Made by a program: the position numbers and the translations under genes
The notes under the pieces: generated by a model
Databases searched by the model: none
Told to the model about the DNA's origin: nothing
The model's input: only the letters and a program-made list of their open reading frames with translations
Part shown: positions 17,225 to 32,972 of the stretch, one piece after another
Numbering within the stretch: the stretch's first letter is position 1
How the letters are laid out: each line of letters begins with the position of its first letter
DNA from: Bacteroidota bacterium
Lineage (GTDB): Bacteria > Bacteroidota > Ignavibacteria > UBA10030 > UBA6906
Direction: 5' to 3'
DNA: 64,000 nucleotides
Assembly: GCA_030835135.1 (NCBI GenBank)
Contig: JAUQWO010000079.1
Span: 62,001 to 126,000, forward strand

Positions 17225-20200
17225 ATGAAAACGATCCGGCTTCTTCTTTTCCTGTCAGCGACAGCACTTCTTGTGGCCGGCTACGGACACGCCCAGAGCG
17301 GCCGCGAGTACCGCCGGTCAGCCGTCATGAACGGCAACCAGGTCCGCACGGTGTTCGGCAACTGGGGCGTCATCGGCCAGCCGACGGACACCCGTCCGCG
17401 TGGCTCCTGGAAGAACGATAACAACGGCTACCTCGGCGATGTGAGTCCCTTCGTCGGTGCCGAGGTCCGGTGGCAGGATACCTCCTTCCGTTCCGTGGTC
17501 TCGAGTCCGGTGGCGCGCCCGACGCAGCTCGCGGACCTCGATCCGGCGACGGGTGAGAACTGGACGTTCGAACCTGTGAACGGGTACTTCGCGCCGTCGC
17601 CGAACCAGAACATCGCGATGAGCAATGATGCGAGGACCTGGCCGGAGGTATGGCCCGATAAGTTGGGAGATGGTGTGGATCCGGGCTGGAAGGGCTCCTG
17701 GAACGGCTACTTTGGCAAACGCATCAGCGCCGATCTGGAATCGTATTTCGTCATGGACGACAATGTGGACCGCCGGTTCAACTTCCCGTTGAACAACGCG
17801 CGGGGCATCGCGTTCAAACCGGATTCCACCAACGTCAGCCGGAACGGCCTCGCGCTCGAAGTACGCGTGCGCGCGATGCAATGGGCGCAGTTCCTGGCCC
17901 AGGACAACATCTTCTGGCTGTATGAGATCGCCAACAAAGGCACGACCACCTATGACCGCGCCGTGTTCGGCATGCTCGTGGGTACCTATATCGGCGTCAC
18001 GGGCAGTGACGGCAGCCCGCAGGAGTACGACGACGACTGGTCGTTCTATGATGTGTTCACCAACATCACGTACACGGCGGACTTCGACCGGAACACGCTC
18101 CGCAACCCGCGCTGGAATCAGCGCTTCCCGGTCGGCATGGTCGGGTATGCCTTCCTGGAGAGCCCGGGTAACCCGTTCGACGGCATCGACAACGATGGCG
18201 ATGCGGATTCCACGACCATCGGGAGCGCCGCGCCGCAATTCGATGCAACGAGCTTCGACTCGACGTCGATCCGTGCCGGACAGACCATCATCCTGATCCG
18301 TGATGACTACAGCAGGGTGGCGTTCCTCGTTCCGAACCGCGACTCGGTGAAGATCAAGACCCGTGGCATGCGCGACTCGGTCTGGATCTATCCGGGCAGG
18401 ACCAAGGTCGTGGAAGGCAATATCGTCCGCGATATTCTCGGGAACGACGTGGTGAACCGCAATGCCTATGACGGTATCGACAACAATTTCAACGGCCTGA
18501 TCGACGAGAACCGGTACCTCCACTACCGTCAGTTCAAGCGGAACCGGAACGCCCCGTTCCAGGTCCTTCTCGACATCCTCCGCCCCGTCCGGCACGCCGA
18601 CGTGGCCGCGGGCGGCGTGGCCAACCCCCTCAGTCTGATCGACGAGCGCCGGAACGACCGGATCGATAACGATCAGGACTGGAACATCGCGTTCGATGAC
18701 GTCGGGCGCGACGGCATCGGGTCGACCGCGGTGAATTATCCGGGACCGGACGCCGGGGAAGGCGACGGCCTGCCCACCTCAGGGTACGATGTCCTGGGGA
18801 AGGACACCGGACTGCCGGGCGAGCCGAACGTCGATAAGACCGACGTGGATGAGTCGGACCAGATCGGCCTCTCGAGCTTCTACTACTTTACGCCCGCCAA
18901 CGTGGTGCGGCTCGGTGATGATGAAGAACTCTGGAAGGACCTTGCGCCCGGTTATTTCGATGTGCCGACGTCCATCGTGAACAACAAACCGGAGCGTGGC
19001 GAGGACGGCGATTTCATCTACGGCTCGGGGTACTTTCCGCTGCTGGCGGGTGCGACCGAACGGTTCTCCCTGGCTCTGGTGTACGGTGGCGGCAAAGGTG
19101 GGAGCGTCCAGGATGACATCAACGATCTGTTGAAGAACAAGCGCACCGTCCAGAAGATCTACGATGCGAACTATCAGTTCCCGACGCCGCCGGACAAACC
19201 GACGCTGGTCGCCGTTCCCGGTGACCGTCAGGTGACGTTGTACTGGGACCGCGTTGCCGAAGCGACCGTAGATCCGGTGCTGCGTACGCGCGACTTCGAA
19301 GGGTACAAGATCTACAAGTCCACCGACCCCGACTTCAGCGACGTCTTCACGATCACCGATGCAACGGGGACGCCCCGCGGGTATCAGCCGCTCGTGCAGT
19401 TCGACATCGTGAACGGCATCCGGGGGTACTTCCAGGCATCCGGCGAACTGTTCCAGGCCGCCGCCGGTTATTCGTTCCGGATGGGCGATGACACCGGACT
19501 CAAGCATTCGTACGTGGACACGGAGGTGGAGAACGGGCGCCGGTACTACTATGCGATCGTTGCCTATGACCGCGGCGATGAAGTGACCGGGATCTTCCCG
19601 GGCGAGAACACCAAGCAGGTGCGCGTGCTCTCCACCGGCGAAGTGGAGAGGGACATCAACGTTGCCGTGGTGACACCCAACGCCCGCAGCGCCGGGTACG
19701 TTGCGCCGGGATCGGGGGTATCCGCGGTGCATCAGGCAGGACCGGCCACCGGTTCGATGATGTTCGGCATCCTCGACCCGAAGGCGCTCACCGGTCATCG
19801 CTACCGTGTCAGTTTCACGGACACGCAGATGGACAGCATCGACAACAACGCCAACGGGAAGCTCGATCTTGCCGACAGCACCGAATGGTCACGGATCACG
19901 ACCTCCTATTCCGTCGAGGATATGGCCGTGATAACGGAGCAGTTCATCAGTCAGGATACGGTGAACATCAGCCTGGGCCGGAAGAATCTGATCGCCGGCA
20001 CGATCACGGTCAGGAATCAGCAGGGGAGCACCATTGATCCCGCGAACTACGTGCTGAACACCGCCCGTGGCGCCATCCGTGGCAGTGGCCCCGGCACCCT
20101 GCCTGCGGGTACCTACACGATCAGCTACCGGTACTACCCCGTGTTCCGGAGTCCGAACCTTCAGGGGTCACCGTACCAGGTGGAGAACGGCGAATCGGAC

Positions 20201-21076
20201 ATCTTTGACGGCGTCACGCTGCTGTTCAGCAATTTCTGGTCGGTGAAGGACACCGCGGATGCGACCACCGGCTGGGTAGGCAAGAGTGCGTACGTCGTCA
20301 ACCTCGGCGCGACGAACCTTCCGTTGCTGGATCCTCCGCTCCTGGGCTACAAGCGGTCGGCGGACTACGAGATACAATTCGCGAACAGCGTCGTCGACAC
20401 TTCGACGGTGGGTCCGTTCCCGTACGACGTTGCCATCCCGGTGAACTTCCGGGTGTACAACCGGACCGACAGCACGTTCGCGAAATTCCTCTTCACCGAA
20501 GGTCCCTCCGCGAACGGCAACGGCAAGATGTCGCCGCTGGACGAGCTGATCGTCATGGAGAACAACCCCCGGGGCGAACTCTCGCCCACATGGGACCTGT
20601 TCATCCTAGCGAAGGTAGGCGATCCCTCGGACACAGTGTACAATCTGGGCAACGGGGACAAGTTCATTTTCAAGATGACGAAGCCGTTCCGGAACGGTGA
20701 TGTGTTCGAGTTCGTCACCGAGGTGCCGAAAGTGGACAACGCGGTTGCCGGCGGGAGTCTGGACCGCATCCGCGTGGTCCCGAACCCCTATGTGACCGCC
20801 GCGGAGTTCGAACCGCCGTTGAACCCGGGTATCACGAGCGGGCGCGGCGAGCGCAAGATGGATTTCACCCATCTTCCTGCCGGGGCCATCATCAAGATCT
20901 TCACGTCGCGCGGGGATCATGTGGTCACCTTGTATCACGACGGTGCCATCGAGGATGGGACGGTGTCGTGGAACCTGAAGACGAAGGAGAATCTGGACAT
21001 TGCCTTCGGCGTCTATTTCTATGTCGTTGAATCGCCGGTGGGGAACAAGACCGGCAAGATCGCGATCATTAAGTGA
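17225..21076 (+). CDS. Large secreted protein with FN3-like module and Ca-binding-like repeats
   Basis: A 1283-residue exported protein (signal peptide MKTIRLLLFLSATALLVAGYGHAQ), one base after the receptor stop codon. Four short Asp/Asn-rich segments resemble calcium-binding D-x-D-N-D-G/D-x-N-G loops: near residues 318 (GIDNDGDADS), 417 (YDGIDNNFNGLIDE), 478 (RIDNDQDW) and 870 (DSIDNNANGKLDLADS). A fibronectin type III-like domain lies at about 658-760 (PPDKPTLVAVPGDRQVTLYW). The C-terminus (RVVPNPYV ... FGVYFYVVES ... GKIAIIK) resembles T9SS sorting domains. It occupies the place a SusD protein has in other glycan loci, but no sequence resemblance to SusD is visible. Likely a surface partner of the receptor; no catalytic motif found. 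Confidence 0.75.
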   Translation: MKTIRLLLFLSATALLVAGYGHAQSGREYRRSAVMNGNQVRTVFGNWGVIGQPTDTRPRGSWKNDNNGYLGDVSPFVGAEVRWQDTSFRSVVSSPVARPTQLADLDPATGENWTFEPVNGYFAPSPNQNIAMSNDARTWPEVWPDKLGDGVDPGWKGSWNGYFGKRISADLESYFVMDDNVDRRFNFPLNNARGIAFKPDSTNVSRNGLALEVRVRAMQWAQFLAQDNIFWLYEIANKGTTTYDRAVFGMLVGTYIGVTGSDGSPQEYDDDWSFYDVFTNITYTADFDRNTLRNPRWNQRFPVGMVGYAFLESPGNPFDGIDNDGDADSTTIGSAAPQFDATSFDSTSIRAGQTIILIRDDYSRVAFLVPNRDSVKIKTRGMRDSVWIYPGRTKVVEGNIVRDILGNDVVNRNAYDGIDNNFNGLIDENRYLHYRQFKRNRNAPFQVLLDILRPVRHADVAAGGVANPLSLIDERRNDRIDNDQDWNIAFDDVGRDGIGSTAVNYPGPDAGEGDGLPTSGYDVLGKDTGLPGEPNVDKTDVDESDQIGLSSFYYFTPANVVRLGDDEELWKDLAPGYFDVPTSIVNNKPERGEDGDFIYGSGYFPLLAGATERFSLALVYGGGKGGSVQDDINDLLKNKRTVQKIYDANYQFPTPPDKPTLVAVPGDRQVTLYWDRVAEATVDPVLRTRDFEGYKIYKSTDPDFSDVFTITDATGTPRGYQPLVQFDIVNGIRGYFQASGELFQAAAGYSFRMGDDTGLKHSYVDTEVENGRRYYYAIVAYDRGDEVTGIFPGENTKQVRVLSTGEVERDINVAVVTPNARSAGYVAPGSGVSAVHQAGPATGSMMFGILDPKALTGHRYRVSFTDTQMDSIDNNANGKLDLADSTEWSRITTSYSVEDMAVITEQFISQDTVNISLGRKNLIAGTITVRNQQGSTIDPANYVLNTARGAIRGSGPGTLPAGTYTISYRYYPVFRSPNLQGSPYQVENGESDIFDGVTLLFSNFWSVKDTADATTGWVGKSAYVVNLGATNLPLLDPPLLGYKRSADYEIQFANSVVDTSTVGPFPYDVAIPVNFRVYNRTDSTFAKFLFTEGPSANGNGKMSPLDELIVMENNPRGELSPTWDLFILAKVGDPSDTVYNLGNGDKFIFKMTKPFRNGDVFEFVTEVPKVDNAVAGGSLDRIRVVPNPYVTAAEFEPPLNPGITSGRGERKMDFTHLPAGAIIKIFTSRGDHVVTLYHDGAIEDGTVSWNLKTKENLDIAFGVYFYVVESPVGNKTGKIAIIK

Positions 21077-25515: not shown

Positions 25516-25553
25516 GAAGGCGGTTCCGGCTCCTCCGGAGCCGCCTTCTTTTT
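25516..25553 (+). terminator. Rho-independent terminator
   Basis: Outer arms GAAGGC (25516-25521) and GCCTTC (25543-25548) plus inner arms GGCTCC/GGAGCC form a GC-rich stem directly followed by a T-run (TTTTTG). It lies about 20 bases after the stop codon of the 1059-residue surface protein gene. Confidence 0.85.
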
Positions 25554-25617
25554 GTTTGCGGCAGCCGCAGGACAACGCAACGAACGTAACGACGTGAACG
25601 TGAGTGCCACTACCTCC

Positions 25618-27423
25618 ATGATCCGATCCCTGTTCCCCCTCCTCCTGGTCTTCACGTGCAGCGTGGCGGCCCAGACCGGCCCCGCGGAGCACGCGGTGAT
25701 CGCACGGGTGGGACATGCCTTCATCAGCGAACGGGAGTTCGTGGAGCGCTTTGAACTGACGCCGGGCCTCTACCGTCATCGAAAGCCGCAGCTGGAAGCC
25801 GAGAAGCTCCAGATGCTGTATTCGATGGTGGCCGAGAAACTCCTGGCCCAGGAAGCCACCGCACGCGCACTCGATACCACCGCGCTCTTTCGTGCTGCAC
25901 TCGCGGATCTGACGAAGCTTCTTGTCCGCGATGAACTCTACCGTCAGGAAGTACGTGCGCATGTCCGGATCACGCCGGCCGAGGTCCGCCAGGGAGTGCA
26001 GCGCGCACGCGAGCGGCGGCTCATTCGCTTCCTCTTCTTCGAACGGGAAGAAGATGCCCGGTTCATCCGCGGACAACTCCGTTCGACCGCCGATCTGGAC
26101 CGGCTCGCACTGGATCCGACGATGCAGGCGATGAAGGATACCGCGACCGTGCACTGGGGCGATGCTGATGAAGCGATCGAGCAGGCGGTCTATGCCCTCG
26201 GCCGCAATGCTCTGTCGCCCGTCGTTCGTGCTGGCAACGGCTTCTATATCCTCCGGCTGGTCTCCGTTGCTCCGGATGCGGCTGTTCTCGCATTCCCCGC
26301 GGAGACACTGAAGGAGCGCGTGGAGTCGACCCTCCGGGTCCGGAAAGAACGGGTGCGTGAAGCGGCATTCCTTGAAGACCTGCTCGCGTCACGCCCGGCC
26401 TCATCACCGCCGGCGACGTTCCGGATCGTGGCGGAGACGGTGGCACGGATCTTCCGCGATGCCTATACACCTCCCTCGATGGCGTTCACACCGGCGATGC
26501 GCGACGCGGCACTCATGCGGCTCGCCGGTCGGACCGCTGACACCCTGATCATCGCAGGCGACAGGATCTGGACGGTCGCCGAAGCCCTCGACCGCCTGGT
26601 CCAACGCGGGTTCACCATGACCGGCGATTCGGTCCGTGGTACGGCAGCCCGGTTGTACACCGTCTTCCGCGAATGGGCACACCAGGAACTCCTCGCCCAG
26701 GAAGGGCTGGCACGTGGGCTCGATCGTCATCCTGAGGTCGTTCGCCGGCTTGGCCCGTGGAAGGATCATTATCTCGCCGGGATGGTCGAACGGAAGATCA
26801 GCGACAGGGTCGAGATCACCGAGGCGGAGGTCTATGCCTACCTCACGAGCACTGATGCCTCCGTGCAGGTCCCGGAGGTACGCCTGCGCGTGTTGCGGAC
26901 GGGAAGTATGGATGAGATGCAGGCCGCGTTCAGGATGATGGAGCAGGGCCGATCGTTCGAAGAGGCGATCGCGGCGTGCGGGACGGATGACCGCCACGGC
27001 GACACGGGGTTCTTTCCTGTTACCGCCCGCCCGCCGCTCGGGTTCCTCGCGTCACGACTCGATCCCGGACAGTTCTACGGCCCCTTTCGTGATTCGTCCG
27101 GATACGTCTACATGCAACTGGTTGAGAAAAGGAATGACAGGGATCCGGTCGACACCACGGGTGCGGCACGCCTGGCAGCGGCACGCGACGAGGTGCACCG
27201 GATGAAGACCCGCCGCACCATCACCCGGTTCCTGGCGCGGAGCGCGGCCAGCAATGGATTCGAGGTGTACCAGGACCGGCTGAAGATGGTGAACGTGACG
27301 CCGATCCCGATGCTCGCGTACCGGCTGCTCGGGTTCGGCGGGCGCATGTTCGATGTGCCGTTCGTGCAGCCACAGATCGACTGGCTGAATGAAGAGCCTC
27401 CACACGAGGTGATCCTCCCGTGA
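25618..27423 (+). CDS. SurA-like periplasmic peptidyl-prolyl isomerase
   Basis: A 601-residue exported protein with a signal peptide (MIRSLFPLLLVFTCSVAAQ). It has a SurA-type N-terminal helical domain (VIARVGHAFISEREFVERFE ... EKLLAQEATARAL), a first parvulin-like domain at about 130-220 (IRFLFFEREEDARFIRGQL ... VVRAGNGFYILRL), a helical middle part, and a second parvulin-like domain at about 420-510 (VRLRVLRTGSMDEMQAAF ... GPFRDSSGYVYMQLVEKRND). Such proteins escort and isomerise outer-membrane proteins. ATG 25618 is chosen for the signal peptide; no Shine-Dalgarno is evident and a GTG at 25594 is possible. Coupled to the next gene by a GTGA overlap at 27420. It may assist the many exported glucan proteins nearby. 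Confidence 0.82.
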   Translation: MIRSLFPLLLVFTCSVAAQTGPAEHAVIARVGHAFISEREFVERFELTPGLYRHRKPQLEAEKLQMLYSMVAEKLLAQEATARALDTTALFRAALADLTKLLVRDELYRQEVRAHVRITPAEVRQGVQRARERRLIRFLFFEREEDARFIRGQLRSTADLDRLALDPTMQAMKDTATVHWGDADEAIEQAVYALGRNALSPVVRAGNGFYILRLVSVAPDAAVLAFPAETLKERVESTLRVRKERVREAAFLEDLLASRPASSPPATFRIVAETVARIFRDAYTPPSMAFTPAMRDAALMRLAGRTADTLIIAGDRIWTVAEALDRLVQRGFTMTGDSVRGTAARLYTVFREWAHQELLAQEGLARGLDRHPEVVRRLGPWKDHYLAGMVERKISDRVEITEAEVYAYLTSTDASVQVPEVRLRVLRTGSMDEMQAAFRMMEQGRSFEEAIAACGTDDRHGDTGFFPVTARPPLGFLASRLDPGQFYGPFRDSSGYVYMQLVEKRNDRDPVDTTGAARLAAARDEVHRMKTRRTITRFLARSAASNGFEVYQDRLKMVNVTPIPMLAYRLLGFGGRMFDVPFVQPQIDWLNEEPPHEVILP

Positions 27424-29393
27424 ACGCGCAGGACCGGGTCCGAACGATCTCCCGTGGGAAGCGGCTGGCATTCAGTCTGGTTCCCACGCTCGGGATCATT
27501 CTGCTCCTTGTGGCGGCGGAGTACATCCTGCGCGCGACCGGTTCGGCCGTGGATGATGGCCTGGTCAGCGAGGTGCAATTCGATGGGACCACCTGGTATC
27601 AGACCAACCGGTCCTACCTCCGGCGCTATTTCCCGCCGCAGAGTCCCCTGGTGCCCGAATTCAAGACGGTCCTGTTTCGCAAGGAGAAGCTGCCCGGGAC
27701 CTTCCGTGTGTTCTGTCTCGGCAGCTCGTCGATGTTCGGTACGCCGTACGACATGAACGCGAACATCCCGGGAATACTCCGGAGGCAACTGCGTACCAGG
27801 TATCCGTCGAAGGAATGGGAGGTCATCAATCTCGGTGCCTCGGCGATCAACAGCAACGTCGTGCGGGACTTTGCGCCGGAGCTGCTGCAGTTCACGCCGG
27901 ATCTCATCCTGATCTACATGGGGCACAACGAATACTATGGCCCCGATGGTCTTGGCGCATCGTTCCTGGAGAAGATGGTCCCAGACCTCACGCCGCTCAA
28001 GTATCGCGCGCGTCGCCTCCGTCTGGTGCAACTCCTGCAGGGGTGGTTGGCGTCCGCGGACGCCGGCCAGGGGACAGCGGCGAACCTCATGCAGCAGGTC
28101 TCCCGGGGACAGCACGTGCCGCTTCATTCGGTGGAGAGTGACCTGGTCATGCAGCGGTTCGGGCAGAATCTCGATGCGATCCTGACCACGTTCACAAAGG
28201 CGGGCGTCCCTGTCCTGATCAGCGATCTGGCCTCGAATGTCATGTTCCCGCCGTTCGCTGCCGACACGCTGATCGCAGACACACCCGCGGCGGTCTTTGA
28301 CGCAGCCATGCGTGCCGACGTTGCGGTGCACCGCTACGCCGACATGATCCGGAGGGCGGACGGTCTCGGCACAACAGGGGCGGATCATCCGGTTGCACAG
28401 TACTGGAAGGGCGTTGCCCTCCGTGCCCTCGGCCGTCCGGCTGATGCTGCACCGCTGCTCAGGGCGGCCCGCGATAACGACCTTCTCAAGTTCCGGGCGC
28501 CGGGGGTGGTGGACTCGATCATCCACGCAACTGCGGAGCGCTGCGGAGTACCCTGCATTTCTGCGGACACGCTCCTGCAGCGTGCGTCGGCGGATGGCAT
28601 TGCAGGTGATTCGCTGTTCTGGGAGCATCTCCATCCGACGCCCGCGGGATACTACTGTATCGCGTCGGGATTCCTGGATGCCATCACCCGGAGCGGCGTC
28701 GTGCGGGAACCTCCCGCCACCCTCGTGCCGGTCCCGTTCCATATGGATTCGTTGCATATCTGCTGGCTGGACCTTGCGTACGGCGATGCGTCCATCCGGC
28801 ATCTGACCGGCCGCTGGCCATTCGAGCACTACGTGCGGAGCCCGCTGGTCCTCGGCGGAGCGGATCCCCCGCTTGCGGACCTCGTGCGCGACACGCACGC
28901 GAGGCGACTGGCTTGGAACGATGCGTGCTATCGTTCGGCGACGATGTTCTGGCGGAACGGGCGGATGCAGGAAGCCCTGACGACCTATAGGGCGATGCTC
29001 GAGGAGTACCCGTACAGTTTCTATACGAACTATCTTGCGGGAAGTCTGCTGAACACGATGGGGCGGGGTGCTGAAGCGGTCGGCTATCTGAAGACCTCCG
29101 TGCACTCCAATCCTGACTATCTCCAAGCACGTCTGGACCTCGGTCTGCTCGATGTGAATGCGGGGAGATACCGGGAAGGCGAAGAGCAATTGCGGTTCGT
29201 GGTACAGAAGGCCGGGTCGTCACCTGAGGACGTGCGGATGAAGGCGAATGCGCTGTATGGCCTCGGTGCCGCTGCGTTCAACCGTGGCGATCAGGCGACC
29301 ACCGCGCGGGCCGTCGAGGAAGCGTTGCGCCTTGCGCCGGGATACCCTGACGCGCTCCGGCTACAAGCCGCGGTGCGGCAGATGGGGAGCTGA
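27420..29393 (+). CDS. Membrane-anchored SGNH-hydrolase-like protein with C-terminal TPRs
   Basis: A 657-residue protein with an N-terminal membrane helix (about 17-38) and an SGNH-like domain: block I FCLGSSSMFGTPYD with the likely nucleophile Ser103, block II NLGASAINSN, block III YMGHNEYYGP and block V EHLHPTPAGYY, with Glu in the place of the usual Asp. The last 170 residues are TPR repeats (ALTTYRAMLEEYPYSFYTNYLAG ...). Function unknown; similar architectures act in O-acylation or deacylation of surface glycans, but that is inference. The GTG start overlaps the preceding stop codon. Its closest relative in the window is the convergent gene at 29454-31433. Confidence 0.78.
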   Translation: MNAQDRVRTISRGKRLAFSLVPTLGIILLLVAAEYILRATGSAVDDGLVSEVQFDGTTWYQTNRSYLRRYFPPQSPLVPEFKTVLFRKEKLPGTFRVFCLGSSSMFGTPYDMNANIPGILRRQLRTRYPSKEWEVINLGASAINSNVVRDFAPELLQFTPDLILIYMGHNEYYGPDGLGASFLEKMVPDLTPLKYRARRLRLVQLLQGWLASADAGQGTAANLMQQVSRGQHVPLHSVESDLVMQRFGQNLDAILTTFTKAGVPVLISDLASNVMFPPFAADTLIADTPAAVFDAAMRADVAVHRYADMIRRADGLGTTGADHPVAQYWKGVALRALGRPADAAPLLRAARDNDLLKFRAPGVVDSIIHATAERCGVPCISADTLLQRASADGIAGDSLFWEHLHPTPAGYYCIASGFLDAITRSGVVREPPATLVPVPFHMDSLHICWLDLAYGDASIRHLTGRWPFEHYVRSPLVLGGADPPLADLVRDTHARRLAWNDACYRSATMFWRNGRMQEALTTYRAMLEEYPYSFYTNYLAGSLLNTMGRGAEAVGYLKTSVHSNPDYLQARLDLGLLDVNAGRYREGEEQLRFVVQKAGSSPEDVRMKANALYGLGAAAFNRGDQATTARAVEEALRLAPGYPDALRLQAAVRQMGS

Positions 29394-29453
29394 GCTCGGG
29401 CGCCGTGTGCATCCGGCAGCCGCTGTGCAGACCCCCAGGGAGTCGAAGTTCAT

Positions 29454-31433
29454 TTATTGAGCGTTGATCTCGGCCATCAGAGCCACGGCGGGACCATAGT
29501 CCGGCTTGAGACGGAGCACCTCGGCAAGCCGCTTCACGGCGAGGTCTGTATGTCCGGCCCGACGGTGCGCAAGCGCGAGAAGATAGCCGTTCTCCACCTG
29601 TTCGGGGGCCGACTGGATGAACCCGAACATGGCGCTGTACATCTTCTCTGCCTCCTCCGGACGTTTGGTCCGGAGGGCGATATCGCCCAGGGCCCGGTAC
29701 GCCAGCTGTGTGGGCTTGACGGTGAGCGAGGTGCGCAGGAGGGATTCCATTTCCGGGATCCTGTTGGTCTCCAGGTACACCCGCGCGAGCTGAAGGTACG
29801 GCATGACGTTCACGACCGGGAATTGATCGATGATCGTGCGGTACTCGCGTTCGAGACCGGCAACGTCGCCTCGGGAGCTGTAGTACTCGACCGCTCCCTC
29901 ATGTGCCTGCAGCCAGTGGATCTCACCGCGCGTTGCGCGGTCCGCGATGAGCCCGAAGGTGTCGTTCTTTGCGATCGCACTGACCAGTCCCTCCGTCTCC
30001 TGGAACGGCCAGGCGGTGATGAGGACCTCGGTGCGCCGTTCGGCGAGTCGTTCATCGAGCGGGGTGACGCGGCGGTCGCGCCAGAGCGTCGCATCGGCGA
30101 TCGTGTCGCGCCGCTCCCATTCCTCCGCGGGGGCGAGGATACCGCGGGACCGCATGGCCTCCGCGTATCCGCGTGCCAGGAGGAACTGGCCGTACGATGA
30201 CGGATGCAGGTGCTCGAGGATCAGTCCGTACCCGATCAGACTATCGCGGGCATGTGCGGCGAAGATCCGCTCCATGTCGACCGTGGCGGTCAGGTGACCA
30301 TCGTCCATGGCGAGGATCGCATCATTGAAATCCGTGCTCGTCCGGAACCGCAACTCATCCCGGTCGCGCGCGAGCCGGTACGCAGCGCGTGCTTCCTCGC
30401 GGTGTCCGAGCGTGTCGAGACAGCGCGCGATACGGAAATGAGTCTCGGCGTGATCCGGAAGGATCTGGAGGGCGGTGCGGTACGAGGACAGCGCGGAGGC
30501 GAACGCTCCGGTCATCATCGCGGACTCTCCGGCATTGAATGCGGTGTGGAAGTGCAGTTGCTCGGCCGGTATCAGGGGAGAGGGGTCCGTGGACATGAAC
30601 GGTGGGAGGCCGCGCAGGTTGGAGACTTGCGTGCCGATGATCAGTGGCACCCCGCGCGCGGTGCACAGCGTGCGCATGTCGTCCAGATTCGCCCGGAAGG
30701 CATCGAGTCCGTCGCGATAGAGCGGGCTGTCGTACGGAATGTACCGTCCGCGGGCCAGCTTCTCCATCATGGTCCCGCGCGATGCAGGGTCATCGCCGGC
30801 GAAGAGCTTGCCGAGCAGGGCATAGCCATCGCGCAGTGCCAGGAAGGTACGCAGGTGGATGAGGCGGAGGGACAGATTGGCGAGCCAGCGGGACCCCCCC
30901 ATGGATTCACGGGAGGCGACGCCGAGGGCACCATAGAATTCGTTGTGGCCATCGTACACGACGATCAGATCGGGTTCCTTATCCATGACCTCGCGTGTCA
31001 TGTCCAGTGCCGTAAAGCTGTTCGTTGCGGTCATCCCGAGGTTGATGACCTCGATATGCCGGTCGGGGAATACCGCTCGGAGGCGGTCGCGGAGGGAGGA
31101 AGAGAACGCGGCATTGTACCAGTACGGAAATCCGACGGTCGTTGAGCCACCGAGGCAGACGATGCGGAATGTGCCGGCGGGTTTCGGCACGAGAAAGTAA
31201 TCCGGCGAGGTGGACGGCAGAAAGGAGACCCGGGTGAAGTAGCGGTGCTTCACGCCGGGGTTCATGATATGATACTCCCGGCCGTTGATGATCTCCGTTG
31301 TGAAGAGGGACAGATCGGGCCCGTATCCCATCAGGCGCAGGCCTCCCTCGATGAAGCCGAAGAGAAGGACCGGGAACGCGATCATGATCGCGTAGTACAA
31401 CCGTCGCCGCTGGTTCGTCATAGGTGTTCGCAT
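29454..31433 (-). CDS. Membrane-anchored SGNH-hydrolase-like protein with C-terminal TPRs (paralogue)
   Basis: A 659-residue protein with the same plan as the gene at 27420-29393: membrane helix near residues 12-33 (YYAIMIAFPVLLFGFIEGGL), SGNH blocks CLGGSTTVGFPYW, NLGMTATNSF, YDGHNEFYGA and EHLHPSSYGQF, then TPR repeats. The pairs CLG-S-S/T, HNE-YG and EHLHP align one to one, so the two are paralogues now facing each other tail to tail. Start: ATG 31433 or ATG 31421; neither has a Shine-Dalgarno, and TATATTG about 25 bases upstream of 31433 could be a -10 element. The 60-base convergent gap shows no terminator. Function unknown. Confidence 0.76.
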   Translation of the reverse strand: MRTPMTNQRRRLYYAIMIAFPVLLFGFIEGGLRLMGYGPDLSLFTTEIINGREYHIMNPGVKHRYFTRVSFLPSTSPDYFLVPKPAGTFRIVCLGGSTTVGFPYWYNAAFSSSLRDRLRAVFPDRHIEVINLGMTATNSFTALDMTREVMDKEPDLIVVYDGHNEFYGALGVASRESMGGSRWLANLSLRLIHLRTFLALRDGYALLGKLFAGDDPASRGTMMEKLARGRYIPYDSPLYRDGLDAFRANLDDMRTLCTARGVPLIIGTQVSNLRGLPPFMSTDPSPLIPAEQLHFHTAFNAGESAMMTGAFASALSSYRTALQILPDHAETHFRIARCLDTLGHREEARAAYRLARDRDELRFRTSTDFNDAILAMDDGHLTATVDMERIFAAHARDSLIGYGLILEHLHPSSYGQFLLARGYAEAMRSRGILAPAEEWERRDTIADATLWRDRRVTPLDERLAERRTEVLITAWPFQETEGLVSAIAKNDTFGLIADRATRGEIHWLQAHEGAVEYYSSRGDVAGLEREYRTIIDQFPVVNVMPYLQLARVYLETNRIPEMESLLRTSLTVKPTQLAYRALGDIALRTKRPEEAEKMYSAMFGFIQSAPEQVENGYLLALAHRRAGHTDLAVKRLAEVLRLKPDYGPAVALMAEINAQ

Positions 31434-31472
31434 AGTCCAATTGGTGGGTTCATTCAATATACAAGGTTCACT

Positions 31473-32972
31473 GTGGAAAGAAAAGGCTGGAGAGCATGGG
31501 GGAAGGATGTTGTCGGTCGGATCTTCATTGCGCTTGGTCTTGTGGGCGCGGTCGTCCCCTTGCCGGTCGCCGCGCAGCCGCACGTGCCCGCCTGGGTGGG
31601 CGATGCGGTGTTCTACCAGATCTTTCCGGAGCGCTTTGCCAACGGCGATCCGACGAACGACCCCCGCGGCGTGCAACCGTGGGGAGGCGTGCCCCGCAAC
31701 GACAACTTCTTCGGGGGCGACCTTGCGGGTATCATCGACCATCTCAACCATCTCCAGAGCCTCGGTATCACGGCGGTCTATCTCAACCCGATCTTTGCTT
31801 CGCCGAGCAATCATAAGTACAATACGACGGACTACATGCGGATCGATCCTTCGTTCGGGGATGATGTGGCGTTCCGAATGCTCGTGGACGAATGCCACGC
31901 GCGGGGGATCCGCGTGATCCTGGATGGGGTCTTCAACCATACATCGACCGATTTCTTCGCGTTCGCCGACCTGCGCAAACGGGGAGCGCGGTCGGTCTAC
32001 CGTTCATGGTACAACGTGACCAGCTTTCCGATCGCCCCACCCCAGACCCCGAACTATGAGTGCTGGTGGGGCCACGGCACGATGCCGAAACTCATGACTG
32101 CCGACCCCTCCGTCCGGTCGTATATCTACGGCGTCACGCGCAAGTGGATGAGTTACGGCATCGATGGGTGGCGGCTGGATGTAGCGAACGAGATACCGCA
32201 CGACTTCTGGAAGGCCTGGCGGACCGTGGTAAAGTCGATCAATCCCGACGCGTACATCTGTGCCGAGATCTGGGACAATGCATCGGCATGGCTGAACGGG
32301 AATGAATTCGATGCAACGATGAATTACAGGTTCCGGACCGCGGTGCTGAATGGACTGATCTCGCGCACCACGACCCTTGCCGCGATGGATTCCGCGCTCA
32401 CGTCACACCGGGCCGACTACAGCCCCGGGGTCAATCATGCATTGCTGAATCTCCTCGGCAGCCATGATACCGAGCGGATCCTTACCGTGGCGGGTGGTGA
32501 CACGGCGGCGGTCAGGCTGGCCATGCTCCTCCAGTTCACGTACCCCGGCGCCCCGATGGTCTACTATGGGGATGAGTTCGGAATGAAGGGTGGCAAGGAC
32601 CCGGGGTGCCGGGGGACCATGGTGTGGGACGGGAAGGACCAGGACACCACGATGTTCCGTTTCGTCCGCGGCATGACCGCCCTGCGCCGATCGCATCCCG
32701 TCTGGAGCCGCGGCAACATTCATACGCTGCTGGTTGACGATGACCGGCGTGTGTATGCGTACGAGCGGACGGGAATGGGCGTGCGGGGCGTGGTTGTGAT
32801 GAACGATGGCACTGCACCGGCAACGGTGCGCGTTCCGACCAGCACCGAACGCGGCCTGACCTGCTCCGAGGTGTGGCCCGCGCCCGGCGTGCCGTGTCCG
32901 ACCAGCGAAGGATGTCTCGAGATCACAGTCCCCGCCCGGTCCGGGCGGGTGTTCCTGGAGGTGAAGGAATGA
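31473..32972 (+). CDS. Exported GH13 alpha-amylase/neopullulanase-type enzyme
   Basis: A 499-residue GH13 enzyme acting on alpha-1,4 (and possibly alpha-1,6) glucans. A signal peptide (about residues 15-35, ending in PLPVAAQP) exports it. Conserved regions are complete: DGVFNHT, GWRLDVANE with nucleophile Asp236, ICAEIWD with acid/base Glu265 and LLGSHDTER with Asp332. The opening AVFYQIFPERFANGDPTND and the early barrel are typical of the neopullulanase/cyclomaltodextrinase side of GH13, though the N-terminal immunoglobulin-like domain of classic neopullulanases is missing. Start GTG 31473 (AAGG six bases upstream); no in-frame ATG lies between it and the signal peptide. ATGA overlap with the next amylase gene shows an operon. 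Confidence 0.9.
   Translation: MERKGWRAWGKDVVGRIFIALGLVGAVVPLPVAAQPHVPAWVGDAVFYQIFPERFANGDPTNDPRGVQPWGGVPRNDNFFGGDLAGIIDHLNHLQSLGITAVYLNPIFASPSNHKYNTTDYMRIDPSFGDDVAFRMLVDECHARGIRVILDGVFNHTSTDFFAFADLRKRGARSVYRSWYNVTSFPIAPPQTPNYECWWGHGTMPKLMTADPSVRSYIYGVTRKWMSYGIDGWRLDVANEIPHDFWKAWRTVVKSINPDAYICAEIWDNASAWLNGNEFDATMNYRFRTAVLNGLISRTTTLAAMDSALTSHRADYSPGVNHALLNLLGSHDTERILTVAGGDTAAVRLAMLLQFTYPGAPMVYYGDEFGMKGGKDPGCRGTMVWDGKDQDTTMFRFVRGMTALRRSHPVWSRGNIHTLLVDDDRRVYAYERTGMGVRGVVVMNDGTAPATVRVPTSTERGLTCSEVWPAPGVPCPTSEGCLEITVPARSGRVFLEVKE

Follow-up and report, generated by a model that had tools for sequence, protein, structure and literature searches.

Two genes of the window (the whole 64,000-nucleotide stretch of DNA that was analysed), A (27420–29393, forward strand) and B (29454–31433, reverse strand), encode membrane-anchored SGNH-TPR paralogues of 657 and 659 amino acids, respectively. 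In a reading to which we attach an even chance, both would be SGNH end enzymes, anchored in the inner membrane and facing the periplasm, of a relay that brings a small group, with carbamoyl as the likeliest candidate, through the membrane to a glycan or glycoprotein. A partner set was found for these proteins, comprising a NodU/CmcH-type carbamoyltransferase, an SxtJ-like membrane protein and a DUF5989 microprotein with a C-terminal FxYxxF motif, which suggests an undescribed route of surface-sugar decoration. We infer carbamoyl as the moved group and a surface glycan or glycoprotein as the acceptor.

Arrangement and paralogy of genes A and B

The two genes lie tail to tail with 60 bp between their stop codons, in agreement with the earlier note, which had described facing paralogues of about 658 codons. 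A starts with GTG and overlaps by 4 nt the stop of an ORF for a SurA/parvulin-like PPIase (25552–27423, forward strand), and a GH13 alpha-amylase gene (31542–32972, forward strand; start set by a codon-bias gene-calling script) is divergent from B. The proteins align over nearly their full length with 28% identity (E 3e-49) and share the order of N-terminal membrane anchor, SGNH domain, TPR insert ahead of block V and C-terminal TPR array. The anchor is a transmembrane helix in A (27453–27536, forward strand; residues 12–39) and a transmembrane segment in B (31338–31394, reverse strand; residues 14–32); the K/R-rich stretch ahead of the helix of A points to an N-in and C-out orientation. TPR helices are placed between SGNH blocks III and V (A, 28287–28475, forward strand, residues 290–352; B, 30354–30539, reverse strand, residues 299–360), and the C-terminal arrays follow (A, 28914–29387, forward strand, residues 499–656; B, 29469–29804, reverse strand, residues 544–655). 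The earlier description of a fusion of SGNH and TPR thus holds in that both domains are present, but the architecture is not a simple fusion, as part of the TPR is inserted inside the SGNH domain. Pfam matched TPR in both proteins, while Lipase_GDSL_2 exceeded its curated cut-off in A and fell under it in B (23.5 vs 32.9 bits); the SGNH assignment of B is therefore based on alignment and structure.

The family alignment, tree and neighbourhoods were built from the best 80 of 559 relatives (78 loci) and lean to close kin. The tree, obtained by a quick method, assigns A and B to separate clades of 14 and 10 rows, respectively, both with SH-aLRT 100, and orthologues of both proteins are found in several genomes. 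Judged from this phylogeny, which the earlier note had proposed, A and B are ancient paralogues, and a recent duplication was rejected on the grounds of the separate, well-supported clades and the presence of both orthologues in several genomes. A and B lie in a starch-use region, and the genome contains five SGNH-TPR copies in four glycoside-hydrolase neighbourhoods, each copy beside glycoside hydrolase genes. Against a glycan-related role, the earlier note had set the prospect of widespread unlinked copies with no glycan context; the copies are indeed widespread and unlinked, but all five in this genome adjoin glycoside hydrolases. The A/B neighbourhood is kept in Ignavibacteriota and beyond, and a homologue of the SurA/parvulin-like PPIase occurs in 14 of the 78 loci from the best 80 of 559 relatives. 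The survey of immediate neighbours counted 90 genes at 55 loci; before the count, 23 of the 78 loci had been set aside as near-duplicates or members of the A/B clades, together with genes outside the range of 90–1100 amino acids. Genes at the loci were called by the codon-bias script, which disregards those shorter than 60 amino acids and may overlook starts or put them in the wrong place.

SGNH fold and catalytic residues

Block I reads GSSS with Ser103 in A (27720–27731, forward strand) and GGST with Ser97 in B (31140–31151, reverse strand); the nucleophile Ser is present in 94 of the 95 family rows, the remaining one being a gap, and the profile GESTT aligns with GDSLT of 9otv. In block III, both proteins have GHNE, with Asn170 in A (27921–27932, forward strand) and Asn164 in B (30939–30950, reverse strand), the usual SGNH form being GxND, and the Asn occurs in 93 of the 95 rows. 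Block V is EHLHP in both, as the earlier note had read it, with Glu402 and His405 in A (28623–28637, forward strand) and Glu407 and His410 in B (30201–30215, reverse strand); the His is found in 92 of the 95 rows, and the acid position holds 72 Glu, 19 Asp, one Asn and three gaps, all these rows coming from the best 80 of 559 relatives. Glu therefore does stand in place of the usual Asp, but it is the norm of the SGNH-TPR family and no exception; its interpretation as lost or odd activity was rejected. In the alignment with Axe2, EHLHP is paired with DRVHP, placing Glu opposite Asp191 and His opposite His194.

The AF2 model of A has a pLDDT of 94.6 and a pTM of 0.92. As a fold search with this whole model was dominated by TPR proteins, the domain of B was modelled separately (pLDDT 93.4). 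The structure prediction that the earlier note had suggested gives a three-layer SGNH fold, with EstL5 matched over 199 residues at Z 19.7 and rmsd 2.7, Axe2 entries at Z 18.4–18.7 and PatB at Z 16.5; the closest folds are true esterases (EstL5, Axe2 and CEX). Axe2, an acetyl-xylooligosaccharide esterase, and EstL5 share the SGNH core, the block I Ser and the block V acid-x-x-His with A and B; unlike A and B, their solved chains of about 205–220 residues have no TPR.

Partner genes and the DUF5989 motif

Among 148 sampled genomes of the phylum, SGNH-TPR and DUF5989 occur together in 53 and are both missing from 90, with five genomes having DUF5989 only and none SGNH-TPR only (Fisher p 8e-35, on counts that are not phylogenetically independent); the scores of the genome searches are limited to the top candidates of an initial pass. 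The 60 relatives divide into 34 with both, one with SGNH-TPR only, three with DUF5989 only and 22 with neither, and families f3, f5 and f6 contain 16 genomes with both, 15 with neither and none mixed, a sub-cut-off match in G042 being counted as absent. Co-occurrence with the carbamoyltransferase is less complete, as this enzyme was found in 33 of the 60 relatives compared with 37 having DUF5989 over the cut-off, and no such enzyme was found in five of the 35 relatives with SGNH-TPR (G003, G006, G011, G018 and G020). MBOAT was used as a control in the 148 genomes (21 with both, 32 with SGNH-TPR only, 33 with MBOAT only and 62 with neither; p 0.60). As there was neither an association in this set nor an MBOAT (PF03062) match in the window's genome, MBOAT was rejected as the SGNH-TPR partner. 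The SxtJ-like partner matches Pfam PF19588 and shows no sign of MBOAT identity, with no invariant His in 13 rows.

In the loci from the best 80 of 559 relatives, at least one trio gene is present in 23 of 78, in 21 of them no more than 300 bp from the SGNH-TPR frame (stop-to-stop frames); 18 of the 78 loci have the complete trio close to the SGNH-TPR gene, and the carbamoyltransferase is present in 18 of the 23 trio-bearing ones. Among cultured relatives, Flagellimonas hadalis and Croceivirga radicis (L072 and L086) have the block adjacent to the SGNH-TPR gene, and Dyadobacter frigoris (L088) has it at another place in its genome. The window's genome has one trio, directly downstream of carB, on a different contig from A and B and unlinked to all five SGNH-TPR genes (nearest 44 kb); among the 53 phylum genomes, 28 likewise have no trio within 10 kb of an SGNH-TPR gene. 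In G009, another trio stands ahead of carA. The 19 genomes behind 20 fetched loci are mostly from other phyla, and 17 of them have DUF5989, one (G206) by a partial match. A single-contig Nitrospiraceae chromosome record (L078) has the SGNH-TPR gene and no DUF5989, and its sole PF02543 match, weak and partial (29.2 bits, positions 269–345), is taken for a putative TsaD-like protein; G211 (L061, 2.3 Mb) and G006 (94% complete) yielded neither DUF5989 nor the carbamoyltransferase. Conversely, eight genomes have DUF5989 without an SGNH-TPR match, namely G092, G095, G101, G107 and G162 of the phylum and G009, G014 and G040 of the relatives. Among the ORFs of these stretches that were scanned with Pfam, a different SGNH protein was seen within the block of G162 alone (L115:6079-7224), capsule/polysaccharide genes were seen in G095 and G107, neither kind was found in G092, and no SGNH protein was found in G009 (67% complete), G014 (92%) or G040 (91%); the only DUF5989 match of G101 has an internal stop.

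FxYxxF forms the C-terminus of DUF5989 in 24 of 24 proteins, in all 20 from further loci and in all five from more genomes (49 proteins in all), and among 786 called genes of at least 60 amino acids only three end in this motif, all of them DUF5989. The K/R residues ahead of the helix suggest that this C-terminus faces outward. According to passages of PMC12148441, FXYXXF on DltX and PatA is an acyl shuttle to the SGNH Ser, and SGNH transferases of the Dlt/PatB kind move acetyl or D-alanyl groups. When eight DUF5989 proteins were searched by hmmscan at E ≤ 10, DltX was not among the matches; the shuttle likeness therefore lies in motif and topology and not in detected homology.

The Dlt (DltB-DltX-DltD), PatA-PatB and AlgI-AlgJ-AlgX systems, as described in those passages, resemble the arrangement proposed for A and B in having an outer-face SGNH transferase and a donor made in the cytoplasm, and in Dlt and PatA a membrane peptide ends in FxYxxF as in DUF5989, a microprotein in Dlt as here (PMC12148441). 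Unlike these MBOAT-SGNH systems, the window's genome combines a carbamoyltransferase and an SxtJ-like protein, with no MBOAT match, and its SGNH proteins have inserted and C-terminal TPR arrays. No open-licence paper searched tied SGNH-TPR or DUF5989 to a carbamoyltransferase; closest among the published cases so covered come the sxt block and, in PMC4010436, the Pantoea cluster. In sxtI-sxtJ-sxtK-sxtL, likened here by description, a carbamoyltransferase, SxtJ, a protein of about 54 amino acids and a GDSL-fold protein are listed side by side, SxtK being taken as DUF5989-like by size and position, and a small molecule is the postulated substrate of SxtL (about 425 amino acids, compared with 657 for A) (PMC2679770, PMC2684587, in the passages on this block). 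In contrast to the sxt block, the trio and A/B of the window's genome are on separate contigs. The Pantoea PNP-1 cluster likewise brings together an SGNH/GDSL gene (pnp1B) and a NodU/CmcH carbamoyltransferase gene (pnp1D), but it is a natural-product cluster, and the passages on it do not name DUF5989, SxtJ or TPR (PMC4010436).

The proposed relay, its rivals and its meaning

In the proposed mechanism, the carbamoyltransferase would activate carbamoyl phosphate, and SxtJ would load the group onto the Tyr near the C-terminus of DUF5989, in the way that DltB loads DltX. This Tyr would pass the group to Ser103 of A or Ser97 of B, after which His405 and Glu402 (A) or His410 and Glu407 (B) would drive its transfer to a hydroxyl of the acceptor. 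Choice of the acceptor may lie with the TPR surrounding the active site, and a single donor module could therefore serve several acceptors; for A and B, a first guess would be that the acceptor is a glycan or glycoprotein associated with alpha-glucan use. The wider proposal is tentative and falls somewhat short of an even chance: a transmembrane system free of MBOAT and AT3, in which one donor trio supplies, through the DUF5989 FxYxxF Tyr, a set of SGNH-TPR proteins (five here) that O-carbamoylate different surface glycans or glycoproteins and are linked to different polysaccharide-use loci. Modification of a surface glycan, which the earlier note had put forward as a possibility, is consistent with the conserved catalytic residues, the probable periplasm-facing anchor, the glycan locus and the partner set with its shuttle motif.

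It is unlikely, in our estimate, that A and B are instead hydrolases which remove the group added by the trio or trim acyl groups during glycan breakdown. The true esterases among the closest folds and the adjoining glycoside hydrolases favour such a role, as does SxtL, beside sxtI-J-K, for which decarbamoylation is postulated (PMC2679770, in the passage on it), but hydrolysis leaves unexplained both the FxYxxF shuttle and the presence of DUF5989 in all 53 phylum genomes that have these membrane-anchored enzymes. That the proteins are ordinary carbohydrate esterases of polysaccharide-use loci, linked to the trio by shared ancestry or lifestyle, is very doubtful: glycoside hydrolases beside all five copies and the conserved A/B neighbourhood are in line with it, but trio genes adjoin in 23 of the 78 loci (best 80 of 559 relatives) and the patchy presence of SGNH-TPR and DUF5989 is matched within families. 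To our knowledge, moreover, alpha-glucans are not normally acylated.

A relay that is real but moves a group other than carbamoyl, or in which the carbamoyltransferase has a side role, is quite unlikely. The acetyl or D-alanyl groups moved by comparable SGNH transferases (PMC12148441, in the passages mentioned) and the slightly lower frequency of the enzyme than of DUF5989 among the relatives point that way; against it, both Pfam domains are present in the two carbamoyltransferases scanned, the enzyme is found in most trio-bearing loci, and carB or carA adjoins the trio in two genomes. The idea of non-catalytic glycan or protein receptors, the glycan version of which was raised in the earlier note, found no support and is highly improbable; a large TPR surface would suit protein binding, but Ser, Asn and His are near-invariant, Glu or Asp fills 91 of the 92 rows with a residue at the acid site (best 80 of 559 relatives), and the fold is like that of solved esterases.

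DUF5989 is a family of unknown function according to its Pfam entry, and PMC2679770 likewise lists SxtJ and SxtK as unknown. Should DUF5989 prove to be an equivalent of DltX that carries carbamoyl, the carbamoyl relay would constitute a further route of envelope modification across the membrane, without MBOAT or AT3. It would also provide a role for the large SGNH-TPR family in Bacteroidota, Calditrichota and related phyla, and the products of sxtJ, sxtK and sxtL would be recast as parts of a relay.

Anatomy and setting of the facing SGNH-TPR genes

The region of the window is an alpha-glucan locus, in which genes A and B, encoding membrane-anchored SGNH-TPR proteins, lie among genes for GH31, a MalK-type ATPase, LacI, a TonB receptor, a PorV-like protein, a type IX secretion-tail protein, a PPIase, two GH13 proteins, a GH57 protein with CBM20, an MFS protein and a sugar ABC transporter. 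Gene A (27420-29393, + strand, 657 aa) and gene B (29454-31433, - strand, 659 aa) are both full-length, and the claim of the earlier note that they are tail-to-tail paralogues of one fusion architecture holds; they are separated by 60 bp and share 28% identity over nearly their entire length. Each has an N-terminal transmembrane segment preceded by K/R, an SGNH core, TPR helices, block V reading EHLHP and a C-terminal TPR array. Between blocks III and V, the SGNH domain is interrupted by about two TPR hairpins, which is a new anatomical point.

AF2 gave a model of A (82-row alignment; pLDDT 94.6, pTM 0.92) and one of the SGNH domain of B alone (pLDDT 93.4, pTM 0.90). A fold search with the whole A model returned a match list filled by TPR proteins; the B domain matched EstL5 with Z 19.7 over 199 residues (rmsd 2.7), several Axe2 entries (Z 18.4-18.7) and PatB (Z 16.5). 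Across 95 aligned family ORFs from the best 80 of 559 relatives, Ser103 is conserved in 94 rows (with one gap), Asn170 in 93 and His405 in 92. At the acid position of block V, 72 rows have Glu, 19 Asp and one Asn, with three gaps. When a sequence profile was made for the region around block V, EHLHP aligned to DRVHP of Axe2, so the Glu takes the place of Axe2 Asp191 and the His that of His194. According to PDB titles, S15A, D191A and H194A are catalytic mutants of Axe2.

The genome of the window (4.9 Mb) contains five full-length SGNH-TPR copies, namely A, B, two on contig C31 and one on C88; four have Glu in block V and one has Asp. A quick maximum-likelihood tree was built from 91 rows (from the best 80 of 559 relatives); it placed A in a clade of 14 rows and B in one of 10, each with support of 100. 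A and B are ancient paralogues retained side by side. Their tail-to-tail order recurs in three fetched loci (L020, L024 and L025) and, by coordinates, in four of the 60 relatives searched (G002, G010, G012 and G016), and four further loci (L013, L016, L021 and L080) retain the pair with a PPIase gene in between.

At least two homologues from a set of twelve window-locus genes occur in 27 of the 78 loci fetched from the best 80 of 559 relatives. The remaining paralogues of the genome adjoin fucosidase-like and GH18-like proteins (third), two GH29 fucosidases (fourth) and GH16, GH2 and CBM9 proteins (fifth); by coordinates, three of its nine GH29 matches are no more than 3 kb away from an SGNH-TPR gene. 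Among 90 immediate neighbours in 55 loci outside the A and B clades (from the best 80 of 559 relatives) were 16 with a Por_Secre tail, eight with a parvulin domain, seven GH13, five SxtJ and four carbamoyltransferases. In the window, a SurA/parvulin-like PPIase gene (25552-27423, +), with homologues in 14 of the 78 loci, overlaps A by 4 nt. B and a GH13 amylase gene may have a common control region, because both diverge from a 108-bp gap (31434-31541). A 1283-aa protein (17225-21076, +), without a Pfam match at E 0.001, has homologues in 20 of the loci (Ignavibacteriota, Calditrichota and others), often adjacent to a TonB receptor and a PorV-like gene, and may be a surface binding partner of a SusD-less receptor.

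Linkage and co-occurrence with carbamoyltransferase, SxtJ and DUF5989

Two proteins emerged when the neighbours of SGNH-TPR genes were clustered: a carbamoyltransferase and a membrane protein of 140 aa. In the examples scanned, Pfam identified them as Carbam_trans_N/C and SxtJ, and a microprotein of about 55 aa as DUF5989. At least one gene of this trio is present in 23 of the 78 loci (best 80 of 559 relatives; carbamoyltransferase 18, SxtJ 20, DUF5989 23, all three 18), and in 21 of these 23 no more than 300 bp separate the SGNH-TPR frame from the closest trio gene. The trio is located within the glucan locus proper in L066 and L085. The genome of the window has one trio, immediately behind carB on C88, and 44 kb separate its DUF5989 gene from the closest SGNH-TPR gene; at the trio, carB, carbamoyltransferase, SxtJ and DUF5989 genes are consecutive on the same strand (L091:7548-13697). 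A carA gene adjoins the trio of G009 (L120). A TPR-less SGNH protein with, by eye, a hydrophobic N-terminus is encoded inside a carbamoyltransferase-DUF5989-SxtJ block of G162 at L115:6079-7224, with a Wzi capsule gene nearby.

Among 60 relatives, SGNH-TPR and DUF5989 occurred together in 34 genomes, SGNH-TPR only in one, DUF5989 only in three and neither in 22; the counts against carbamoyltransferase were 30, 5, 3 and 22. Across 148 phylum genomes, each at least 90% complete, those for DUF5989 were 53, 0, 5 and 90 (Fisher p 8e-35), and those for an MBOAT control 21, 32, 33 and 62 (p 0.60). These p-values are only a guide because Fisher tests disregard shared ancestry. Better evidence is the match within order families f3, f5 and f6, where, on our reading, 16 genomes have both, 15 neither and none is mixed, G042 being scored absent for a match below the cut-off. 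Of the 53 phylum genomes with both, 25 have SGNH-TPR and DUF5989 no more than 10 kb apart and 28 do not. DUF5989 was also found, once as a partial match, in 17 of the 19 genomes behind fetched loci, mostly of other phyla; the two in which it was not found belong to L061 and L078. L078 comes from a Nitrospiraceae chromosome recorded as a single contig, which carries an SGNH-TPR gene (L078:10007-11866) without DUF5989 and whose sole carbamoyltransferase match is weak and partial; this SGNH-TPR protein has either another function or another donor.

A putative tyrosine-to-serine relay and its targets

In all 24 DUF5989 proteins of the loci and the genome of the window, PFIYxxF forms the exact C-terminal end after one transmembrane segment, and the same end is found in 20 further fetched genomes and five more (G009, G014, G040, G107 and G162). 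Among 786 called genes of at least 60 aa from the window and the loci (best 80 of 559 relatives), F.Y..F lies within three residues of the end in three, all DUF5989. According to an excerpt of a published account (PMC12148441), the Tyr of the outward C-terminal FXYXXF of DltX or the MBOAT PatA carries an acyl group to an SGNH Ser. Therefore, DUF5989 has the motif and single-helix build of this shuttle and, we infer, its orientation. A Pfam scan of eight DUF5989 proteins gave no DltX match at E<=10, so this is a likeness rather than demonstrated homology.

A and B may thus be the last transferases of a relay that works similarly to MBOAT-SGNH systems but without MBOAT. A group, probably carbamoyl, would be activated in the cytoplasm and loaded onto the DUF5989 tyrosine with SxtJ assisting; the tyrosine would pass it on to the SGNH serine, from which it would be transferred to a surface glycan or glycoprotein. 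The arrangement resembles the sxtI-J-K-L block, and SxtL is postulated as decarbamoylating in passages of its description (PMC2679770, PMC2684587), which keeps alive the reading of A and B as hydrolases that take off the group added by the trio or trim acyl groups of glycans. According to an excerpt of its report (PMC4010436), a Pantoea natural-product cluster also combines one SGNH gene with a NodU/CmcH gene. No publication linking SGNH-TPR or DUF5989 with carbamoyltransferase was found in a search of open-licence papers.

For A and B as transferases, one shared donor with acceptor-specific enzymes fits the numbers, because most of the 21 genomes of the family of the window have a single DUF5989 match and up to six SGNH-TPR matches, fragments counted. 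A parallel for such a division of labor exists in plants, in the RWA/TBL acetylation system. Where SGNH-TPR is absent, the trio stands in a capsule or polysaccharide setting (G095 and G107) or is accompanied by an SGNH protein without TPR, with a Wzi gene nearby (G162), which points to extracellular glycans as the targets.
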